Assembly (NCBI RefSeq): GCF_001548095.1 | Contig: NZ_AP014815.1 | Location: 2,975,656 to 3,039,655 of the forward strand | Direction of reading: 5' to 3' | DNA from: Geminocystis sp. NIES-3708 | GTDB taxonomy: Bacteria; Cyanobacteriota; Cyanobacteriia; Cyanobacteriales; Cyanobacteriaceae | DNA: 64,000 nt | Part shown: positions 57,088 to 59,532 of the stretch, one piece after another | How the letters are laid out: every line of letters starts with the position of its first letter | Numbering within the stretch: position 1 is the stretch's first letter | The notes under the pieces: generated by a model | What the model saw: only the letters and a program-made list of their open reading frames with translations | What the model was told of the DNA's origin: nothing | Databases searched by the model: none | Program-made: the position numbers and the translations under genes

Positions 57088-58713
57088 TTAAATTGGTTTA
57101 CTATAAATCATAATTAATTGTCTTTGAGGATTATATACTTCTACAGGAATTTTATATTTAGCATTGATATACTTATAGTTCTTTTCCACTTGATTTATAT
57201 GAGTACTAATCTGTTTTTCTTGCTCTATATTATTCGTTAATTTTGTCACCGCTGATAAGGAAGCAATTTTCTGTAAGTATTTATCTGTTAAAAAAACTTT
57301 AACACTTTCTTTACTGACATTAAAAGTACAAATCTCCTCAGTATTTTTACAGATCTTTATCAATTCTTGTTTAATTTCTTCCCTTGTTACTGCTTGTTTT
57401 AATTCAGATTTTGCCATTATTAATTGTTTACTAGCACTAGATTCTAAGTCAGTTATTTCTTTTTTTGCTAAAACCTCTGAAGGAACTTTTTTTAATAAAG
57501 AAATCGCTTCTTGCCATAATGAAACGGCTTTTGTCCATTGATTATTTTTTTGAGATTCTTTGGCTAATTTGATTTTTTCTTCTGCTTCTTTTTTAATATT
57601 TAAAGCATCTTTTTCTTCATTTATTTTATTTTGAACTTCGATAAGTTTTTGCAAATAATTTTTTAAAGTCGCATCTTTTTCTCGATAAGCATTAGTTTGC
57701 TCAGGAATTGATTCTATTGTTTTGATAGCTAATTGCCAATTTTTTTGTAGATTCTCCAACTCTGATAAATTAGTGACTTGTGTTTGTTGATTTTCAATAT
57801 CTGTTGCTATTGTTTTTCCTTTACTTAATAATTCATTACCTTGTTTTTCTTGACTAATGTTTTGATCAATTAGCTGTAATTTATTATTATAAATATTTAT
57901 TTTTTTTTGCTTATAACTATCTAATTCTTCTATATTTATTTGATTAATAATTGTGATAGCTTCGTTAAAAAAATCTTTAACACGATTCCATTCATCTAAA
58001 GATAAAGGTAAATTTTTACTTACAGTTTCAGCTGTATCTACTGATTTTAAAGCCACTAATAAATTATCTAATTGTTCAACTTGATTTTGATAATCTTTAA
58101 TTAATAAATTTGCATTATCATAAGATTTTGACCAAAAGGGAATGCGTTTTAAATCATTAATGCCATTAATTAAACTTAATTGTAACTCTTTTATTTTTGT
58201 TTCAGTTAAATCTTGAGATTGATTTTTAAATGAAGAAGAAATAGAAGTTTCGGTTGTGGTTATCAATTCGCAATTACCGATGACACAGGGACGAGTAAAA
58301 TAATAAAAAATACCAATTGTACCTAAAGAAATAATACCTAAAATCAAGAGAATAAAACTAACAGAAAAATTAGCAGAAATATATTTTTTACCAGCTTTTA
58401 ATAATAATTCATTTTGATTAATAACATCATTATTTTCTTGAGAATTAAAATAAACATTATCTGTATTATCGAAATTACAAATTAAAAAATCATCGATAAT
58501 TTGATAGCTATTAATTACTTCTTTAATTTGATTAATAATTTCTATTAAAATATTTTCATCAACGTCACTAATTAAAATCACCAAATAATTATTTTCTTTA
58601 AAACAGTCTATTTGTAAAGAAAAATCAAAAGTTAATTTGTTATTAATAGCTTCATAAAAGGCTTTTTTTAAAGTTTGATAATCAATATTATTACCGATAG
58701 CTGTGTTAATCAT
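57088..58713 (-). CDS. Uncharacterised membrane protein with coiled-coil and helical repeats
   Basis: The 541-residue protein has a soluble N-terminal domain (1-110), one membrane helix (about 116-141), then long coiled-coil and TPR-like helices, including NWQLAIKTIESIPEQTNAYREKD and NNQWTKAVSLWQEAISLLKKVP, and a C-terminal strand region (ITAEYK-like). This is a common plan in cyanobacterial proteins of unknown function. The gene upstream of it, 58751-59050, is on the same strand, 37 bases away. No function assigned. Confidence 0.6.
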   Translation of the reverse strand: MINTAIGNNIDYQTLKKAFYEAINNKLTFDFSLQIDCFKENNYLVILISDVDENILIEIINQIKEVINSYQIIDDFLICNFDNTDNVYFNSQENNDVINQNELLLKAGKKYISANFSVSFILLILGIISLGTIGIFYYFTRPCVIGNCELITTTETSISSSFKNQSQDLTETKIKELQLSLINGINDLKRIPFWSKSYDNANLLIKDYQNQVEQLDNLLVALKSVDTAETVSKNLPLSLDEWNRVKDFFNEAITIINQINIEELDSYKQKKINIYNNKLQLIDQNISQEKQGNELLSKGKTIATDIENQQTQVTNLSELENLQKNWQLAIKTIESIPEQTNAYREKDATLKNYLQKLIEVQNKINEEKDALNIKKEAEEKIKLAKESQKNNQWTKAVSLWQEAISLLKKVPSEVLAKKEITDLESSASKQLIMAKSELKQAVTREEIKQELIKICKNTEEICTFNVSKESVKVFLTDKYLQKIASLSAVTKLTNNIEQEKQISTHINQVEKNYKYINAKYKIPVEVYNPQRQLIMIYSKPI

Positions 58714-58750: not shown

Positions 58751-59050
58751 TTAATTATTGATAGGTGAAATAGTACGAATCATTTTGAGTATTTGTAGTA
58801 AAAAAATCTTTTGACGCAATTCTGAATTTATATTAGGAGGAAAAGGATTTGTAACTATTTTTTCTTGCAATAAAGCATATTCTTCTACCGTTAAAGGTTT
58901 ATTATCAATAGGAGATCGTGCTTCAATAATAATTTCTGTGGCTAAAATTTCTTCTGGAGTATCATTTTTCGGTGGTAAAGCAGAAACGGCAAAATTAGAG
59001 ATTAATAAACTAGAGATTAAGGTTAAACTGGCAAAGAAAAAGTTAATCAT
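58751..59050 (-). CDS. Small secreted conserved protein of unknown function
   Basis: The 99-residue protein has a signal peptide (1-24, ending VSALPP) and a short conserved body: EEILATEIIIEARSPIDNKPLTVEEYALLQ and RQKIFLLQILKMIRTI. Similar small cyanobacterial proteins are, as I recall, widespread and uncharacterised. It is 37 bases upstream of the 541-residue gene on the same strand, so a joint periplasmic task is possible. No further function is visible. Confidence 0.65.
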   Translation of the reverse strand: MINFFFASLTLISSLLISNFAVSALPPKNDTPEEILATEIIIEARSPIDNKPLTVEEYALLQEKIVTNPFPPNINSELRQKIFLLQILKMIRTISPINN

Positions 59051-59172
59051 AATGTATTATAACAATACAAAAAATTCATCAAGATAATAAGCAAAAAATT
59101 AGACTTTATCGGAAATTTTAAGCTATATTATACTATTAATCGATCAACTACAGGGAAAGTAAGGAGGTAGCT

Positions 59173-59532
59173 ATTTCAGAACAACTAAATCTGACAGTCA
59201 GTCTTAGAGGTACTCGTGAAGTCAAAAAAAATTGCCAAGTCTTTCATTTACTAGGTCAATTAGATGCTTTTTCTGAACCAACATTTCAAAGAGTTATATT
59301 AAGCTATACAAAAGAGAGTGCTAATCAAATAATCTTAGATTTATCACAAATTGATTTTATTGATAGTTCAGGGTTAGGTGCTTTAGTGCGTATTGCAAAA
59401 CATATGGATGGTATTAAAGGAAAAATGCAAATTGTCAGTAACCCTAGAGTAACCCAAACTGTCAAAATGGTGAGACTAGAGAAGTTTCTTAACTTGAAAA
59501 ATTCTCTTGATGAGGCACTAAAAGATATATAG
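59173..59532 (+). CDS. STAS-domain protein starting at AUU
   Basis: No ATG, GTG or TTG precedes the conserved sequence in this frame after the TAA at 59137. AAGGAGGT (59161-59168), a full consensus Shine-Dalgarno, lies four bases before ATT (59173), so I propose AUU initiation. The 119-residue product SEQLNLTVSLRGTREVKKN... continues as a STAS domain with DFIDSSGLGALVRIAKH and TVKMVRLEKFL. It is 28 bases before mini-RNase III. Anti-sigma antagonist is the family label; the target is unknown. CTG at 59191 is a weaker alternative. Confidence 0.8.
   Translation: MSEQLNLTVSLRGTREVKKNCQVFHLLGQLDAFSEPTFQRVILSYTKESANQIILDLSQIDFIDSSGLGALVRIAKHMDGIKGKMQIVSNPRVTQTVKMVRLEKFLNLKNSLDEALKDI

Follow-up and report, generated by a model that had tools for sequence, protein, structure and literature searches.

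Bacterial genes that start outside AUG, GUG and UUG include infC, which encodes initiation factor IF3 and is autoregulated, and pcnB. Very few such genes have been characterised by experiment (PMC5472188). In E. coli, the AUU start of infC is disfavoured by IF3 (PMC5472188). Streptomyces sigR starts at GTC behind an extended Shine-Dalgarno (SD) sequence, AGGAGGTG, and is repressed by IF3 (Feeney 2017, PMC5472188). According to the same paper, the sigR start is GTC in 32 of 34 species and GTT in 2, it was misannotated, and a canonical start put into sigR made the regulon constitutive.

In Synechocystis, Ssr1600 is the antagonist of the anti-SigC factor Slr1861 in the SigC cascade (PMC12329169). 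As described there, Ssr1600 binds Slr1861 unless it is phosphorylated. Binding and phosphorylation by the anti-sigma kinase were shown in Synechocystis, as were the partner-switching role and the dosage sensitivity of Ssr1600. More unphosphorylated Ssr1600 frees SigC, and growth is restrained. Phosphorylated Ssr1600 is described as abundant at high CO2, so the protein is not necessarily scarce. No anti-sigma gene adjoins ssr1600 in Synechocystis. Residue 1 in print is a TTG initiation codon, and this presumed start was changed to ATG in the overexpression construct (PMC12329169).

Here we analyzed a gene for a STAS-domain protein in Geminocystis sp. NIES-3708. Its closest precedent is Streptomyces sigR. 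Both genes belong to a sigma regulon and have an extended SD sequence and a conserved start outside AUG, GUG and UUG. However, sigR encodes a sigma factor and the STAS gene an anti-sigma antagonist, and the GTC or GTT of sigR is conserved within one genus whereas the AUU, AUC or AUA (AUH) of the STAS gene extends over a class. The effect of IF3 is demonstrated for sigR, whereas for the STAS gene we infer it. With E. coli infC the STAS gene has the AUU start in common, but it does not encode a translation factor, so autoregulation does not arise.

Results

Layout of the locus

The window is the whole stretch of 64,000 nucleotides that was analyzed (contig NZ_AP014815.1, positions 2,975,656 to 3,039,655). 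The features of the locus are as follows.

59137..59139, plus strand: TAA, upstream in-frame stop of the STAS frame (sequence)
59161..59168, plus strand: Shine-Dalgarno sequence AAGGAGGT (sequence; conservation)
59173..59175, plus strand: ATT (AUU), putative initiation codon (conservation; coding boundary)
59173..59532, plus strand: STAS-domain anti-sigma factor antagonist of 119 codons, Ssr1600 orthologue by residue register (profiles; cited residues)
59191..59193, plus strand: CTG, internal Leu7 (codon +6), counterpart of the published TTG start of Ssr1600
59365..59370, plus strand: Ser65-Ser66, equivalent of the phosphorylated Ser59/Ser60 of Ssr1600 (6-residue offset; PMC12329169)
59561..60028, plus strand: mrnC (Mini-ribonuclease III), next gene (open reading frame; Ribonuclease_3 domain, E 1.8e-22; synteny)

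Read directly, the TAA, the SD sequence and the ATT all lie where a preliminary description of this DNA had placed them, with AGCT between the last two. The ATT (codon 0) opens 119 sense codons, ATT and 118 more, closed by TAG at 59530-59532. The 120 codons given earlier are right if the stop is counted, but not as sense codons. The eleven codons between TAA 59137 and ATT 59173 contain no ATG, GTG or TTG. At this locus (L009) these codons are absent from the TAA through codon +10, which agrees with the earlier remark that none precedes the conserved start.

The next gene, mrnC, lies downstream on the same strand, up to 995 nt away, in every one of the 69 named loci (of 70) whose downstream sequence extends to 1.5 kb or more. 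On the minus strand, the two predicted proteins at 58751-59050 and 57088-58713 had no Pfam or NCBIfam match at E 0.001. A sigma-70 promoter search of 1.2 kb upstream of the STAS gene, on both strands, gave 4 weak matches versus 5.0 expected.

Identity of the protein

The STAS frame matches Pfam PF01740 at E 1.4e-18 (67 bits against a cut-off of 22.6) and passes TIGR00377 (ant_ant_sig) with 66.2 bits against a curated cut-off of 53.45. The DSSGLG motif with its phosphorylatable serine is present as FIDSSGLG (Ser65/66). Matches to solved structures are SpoIIAA (1auz, 1th8) and TM1442 (1sbo), at E 1e-8 to 4e-7. These are likewise STAS anti-sigma antagonists, and the Asp-Ser site is common to both and the window protein. 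In Bacillus the anti-sigma gene lies in the operon of the antagonist, whereas here the next gene is mrnC.

The residues given for Ssr1600, including Leu24-Asp25 and Phe56-Ile57-Asp58-Ser59-Ser60, are numbered six before those of the window protein (PMC12329169). Read with this offset, 16 of 20 residues cited for Ssr1600 are identical in the window protein; R33, G43, Q67 and L93 differ. Judged by residue register and by these cited interface residues, the window gene is the orthologue of Synechocystis ssr1600. The two are the same protein by register, but the published start of Ssr1600 is TTG, which by the offset of six corresponds to codon +6 here.

Orthologues were collected in two draws. In the first, 56 of 60 relatives had one, the genome of the window included. 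The four others are genomes 61-75% complete, one with no match (G005) and three with weak matches (G014, G040, G043). In the draw over the phylum, 138 of 292 genomes had an orthologue at E 1e-14, all of them in the class of the window. Among the 20 listed of the 154 phylum-draw genomes with no match, 1 is in the class (G150) and 19 are outside it. Combined, the draws gave 166 genomes with one locus each, from 43 families by a hand count of labels. A named set of 70 contigs overlaps this set in part. At least 16 of the 20 cited residues were found in 144 of the 166 loci and all 20 in 22 loci; 17 loci scored 5 or fewer, with register shifts by indels left uncorrected.

The start codon across cyanobacteria

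Among the 166 genomes, the codon aligned with ATT 59173 is ATT in 114, ATA in 26, ATC in 21, CTG in 2 and another codon in 3. It is therefore AUH in 161 genomes, and ATG at the aligned codon itself in none. The named set gave ATT 63, ATC 3, ATA 1, CTG 1 and two others, namely the locus of a Prochloron MAG (L103) and a locus with ATA one codon up (L095). Two more loci of the 166 have ATT one (L178) and three (L123) codons higher, each with an SD sequence at a similar distance. In L178, L123 and L095, the SD sequence and the AUU or AUA are shifted jointly by 1-3 codons, and the added residues lie downstream of the start. These results strongly support the earlier proposal of an AUU start under an SD sequence. 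The check proposed with it, conservation of both elements in homologues upstream of mrnC, was also positive.

The sole ATG start that we found is that of the Prochloron MAG, where both the SD sequence and the AUH codon are gone. It stands at codon -2 (L179, with the same sequence there as L103). In a genus of the window's own family (g4; L020, L021, L041), CTG replaces AUU and the SD sequence is kept (TAAGGAGG). This CTG is a second non-AUG solution. The genus of G021 has ATT at codon 0 in 5 of 5 genomes (L160, L161, L124, L209, L282) and TTG at +6 in three of these (L160, L124, L282).

On a protein tree, the third base of the start codon switched between T, C and A on at least 16 occasions and not once became G. 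The tree was a quick maximum-likelihood tree of the proteins minus their first six codons; L178 and L123 were entered as ATT, and the count leaves out the CTG and Prochloron rows. ATA, present in 26 genomes, is one transition away from ATG. For comparison, a reconstruction among close relatives put the change to AUG at 0.0398 of ancestral GUG starts and 0.0174 of ancestral UUG starts (PMC5622118). A near-universal AUH codon that is almost never AUG suggests that poor translation may itself be under selection.

Evidence that codon 0 is the start

Comparison of the loci gives the position of the start, its conservation, the avoidance of AUG and the strong SD sequence. An SD match of at least 6 nt is present in 124 of the 166 genomes, versus 6 of 664 windows further upstream in the same loci. 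The aligned spacing to codon 0 is 4 nt in 116 of 166. Lineages with ATC have a weak SD sequence, at most 4 nt in 14 of 21.

Coding conservation begins at the same place. Among 159 distinct sequences, the pairwise amino acid identity at codons -10 to -5 is 0.06-0.10, and each of these codons is an in-frame stop in 2 to 14 sequences; codon -4 is a stop in 38 and codon -2 in 7. Codon +2 is Glu or Asp in 158 of the 159. Leu, Thr, Ser, Leu and Gly are nearly invariant at +6, +7, +9, +10 and +12, with an identity of 0.98-1.00 at +6 and +7. At codons +2 and +4 the amino acid is kept with synonymous change. The preliminary description had named extension upstream of the ATT as one way in which it could fail, and such extension is contradicted by the in-frame stops and the missing coding signature. 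The second residue suits removal of the initiator Met, under the rule given in PMC13339759, in 147 of 166 genomes (Pro, Ala, Ser, Thr or Val). The others have residues that are not of the Met-removal type: Glu in 11 genomes and Asn, Arg or Lys in 8.

In 53 of 166 genomes, the stretch between the upstream stop and codon +10, that codon included, has no ATG, GTG or TTG. A canonical codon lies upstream in the same open frame in 49, and GTG or TTG lies somewhere at +1 to +10 in 86, ATG never. The third base varies while AU stays fixed, which is also expected of a conserved internal Ile, so the case for codon 0 as the start rests on the upstream stops and coding boundary, the strong SD sequence, the lack of a canonical codon up to +10 and the lack of an upstream open reading frame. 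AUU initiation under a strong SD sequence is strongly supported by these comparisons.

Other explanations of the start

Translation from a canonical codon downstream, TTG at +6 or GTG at +8, would agree with the published work on Synechocystis. TTG is found at +6 in 29 of 166 genomes and GTG at +8 in 44, and the construct begun at the TTG, as ATG, raised both forms of Ssr1600 and slowed growth (PMC12329169). However, 164 of 166 genomes encode Leu at codon +6, and all six synonyms occur (CTG 59, CTA 46, TTG 29, TTA 21, CTC 6, CTT 3). Where codon +6 is TTG, an SD sequence of at least 5 nt precedes it in only 1 of 29 genomes, and codon 0 is AUH in 27 of them and CTG in 2. Together with the coding signature from +2 (with synonymous change at +2 and +4) and the 53 genomes that have no canonical codon up to +10, this makes a downstream start very unlikely, and we rejected it. 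The same Leu synonyms count against initiation at CTG 59191, which had been raised before as a possible failure. In prfB, an internal SD sequence stimulates frameshifting, and codon 0 could likewise be an internal Ile codon that ribosomes from an upstream open reading frame reach by frameshifting or read-through. Its variation is Ile-like, and in 137 of 166 genomes a canonical codon lies in an upstream frame open to codon 0, for the most part no more than short random frames would give. Against this, upstream of codon 0 the STAS frame shows no conserved coding, 108 genomes have no ATG-started upstream frame that reaches codon 0, and 29, the window among them, have no canonical one in any frame, which removes frameshifting there. 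In the window itself, only one codon of the second frame and four of the third are open before codon 0, and no frame holds a start. Frameshifting is thus refuted for the window unless an upstream frame also starts non-canonically, and we hold it to be highly improbable. Chance, or a sequencing error at one locus, would be compatible with the frequency of the SD-ATT motif, which is close or equal to chance expectation in both window and genome. The agreement of 161 of 166 genomes refutes both and excludes the ATT-for-ATG error considered earlier; their probability is negligible.

The SD-ATT motif in the genome

The pattern AGGAGG-N4-8-ATT occurs 7 times in the window versus 2.65 expected, and 3 of 100 shuffles reach 7. 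Genome-wide, AAGGAGG-N4-6-ATT occurs 50 times versus 56 for the reversed control pattern. Of these 50 sites, 30 were read, and at 29 of them no gene starts with AUU; the remaining one (L330) is undecided. The other 20 include the STAS site. The motif alone is therefore near chance, and the finding exceeds chance because it is conserved over 166 genomes. AUU starts as a general habit of the genome were rejected, with the motif at control level and 29 of the 30 sites read not being AUU genes. Three of the other stand-alone STAS genes of the genome have ATG, ATG and TTG as their first permitted codon, and a fourth (L002) has an in-frame ATG. At L330 (G000:C1:1383881-1383896, minus strand), a 501-codon frame opens with an ATT located six bases past AAGGAGG; a TTG follows the ATT at two codons and an ATG at 23.

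infC and IF3

The preliminary description had drawn a parallel with infC, which holds for E. coli but seemingly not for cyanobacterial infC, where a canonical start is available in the 58 genomes read. Matches were found in 59 genomes, and G043 was left out of the reading. All 59 loci read (58 genomes, G006 twice) have a canonical codon within the 24 codons that precede the conserved block: GTG alone in 43, ATG and GTG in 8, GTG and TTG in 5, ATG in 2 and TTG in 1. AUU-based self-control of infC thus seems to be absent in these cyanobacteria, whose infC seems to do without the AUU codon that the class retains in ssr1600. The IF3 encoded by the window's genome is related over its full length to IF3 proteins of solved structure (best E 1.8e-52). 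In infC of G000 (G000:C1:1263413-1263616, L275) and of the 57 other genomes, the codon is GTG in most cases, and CCT GTG recurs as its context.

Discussion

We consider it probable that Ssr1600 is translated from a class-wide AUH start, AUU in the window, and that low output has been selected. The strong SD sequence would hold the 30S subunit on the STAS mRNA, where just two bases of AUU, the first and the second, would pair with the initiator tRNA. IF3 would be expected to disfavour this start, and the antagonist would then be made at a limited rate that depends on initiation fidelity. It may thereby stay below the level that would titrate Slr1861 and release SigC. We infer both the discrimination of the cyanobacterial AUU start by IF3 and a low translation rate as the selected property. 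The IF3 step and the low antagonist level suggested in the preliminary description would fit what is known of infC, sigR and the dosage of Ssr1600, and a start that limits translation fits the need to restrain Ssr1600.

The AUH start could also be real and act as a fixed brake, with low initiation balanced by the strong SD sequence, so that the level of IF3 gives the SigC cascade no information. The single AUG case has no SD sequence, as expected if output level alone were selected; this Prochloron lineage fits low output as well as it fits IF3 control. The leader also shows no sign of structure. Six sequences were folded (z -0.52 to 2.34), none was clearly stabler than its shuffles, and a stable RNA structure over the start was rejected. 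On the other hand, a weak SD sequence with AUG would serve a fixed brake equally well, yet it occurs in one lineage only, and IF3 would be expected to disfavour CUG, the other substitute, as well. A fixed brake is a possible reading, but a somewhat doubtful one. A bolder form of the IF3-dependent reading is that the class-wide AUH start lets the SigC partner switch read the state of translation initiation. If IF3 fell relative to 30S subunits, or if initiation became permissive, more antagonist would be made, SigC would be released and growth genes would go down. We put this forward tentatively and think it rather unlikely. If true, start-codon fidelity would be a third input to the SigC switch, beside inorganic carbon (Slr1861) and light (PmgA).

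Ssr1600 decides between growth and restraint, and the AUH start of its gene is conserved over a class, not a genus. This start offers a testable link between initiation fidelity and the choice of sigma factor in photosynthetic bacteria. Among the matches listed in the open-licence PMC literature, we found no report of an AUU start for ssr1600. The words AUU, ATT and Shine-Dalgarno are absent from the main text of the Ssr1600 paper (PMC12329169), and the main text of a comment on Synechocystis proteogenomics (PMC13339759) does not mention ssr1600. Six native codons are probably missing from the published Ssr1600 construct, which would then bypass the native start. Our comparison suggests that the N-termini of Ssr1600 and its orthologues are wrong wherever gene callers permit only ATG, GTG and TTG.

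The N-terminus of mrnC is poorly defined. Its listed start, TTG 59561, is merely the first permitted codon, and the N-terminal tail differs greatly between close relatives.
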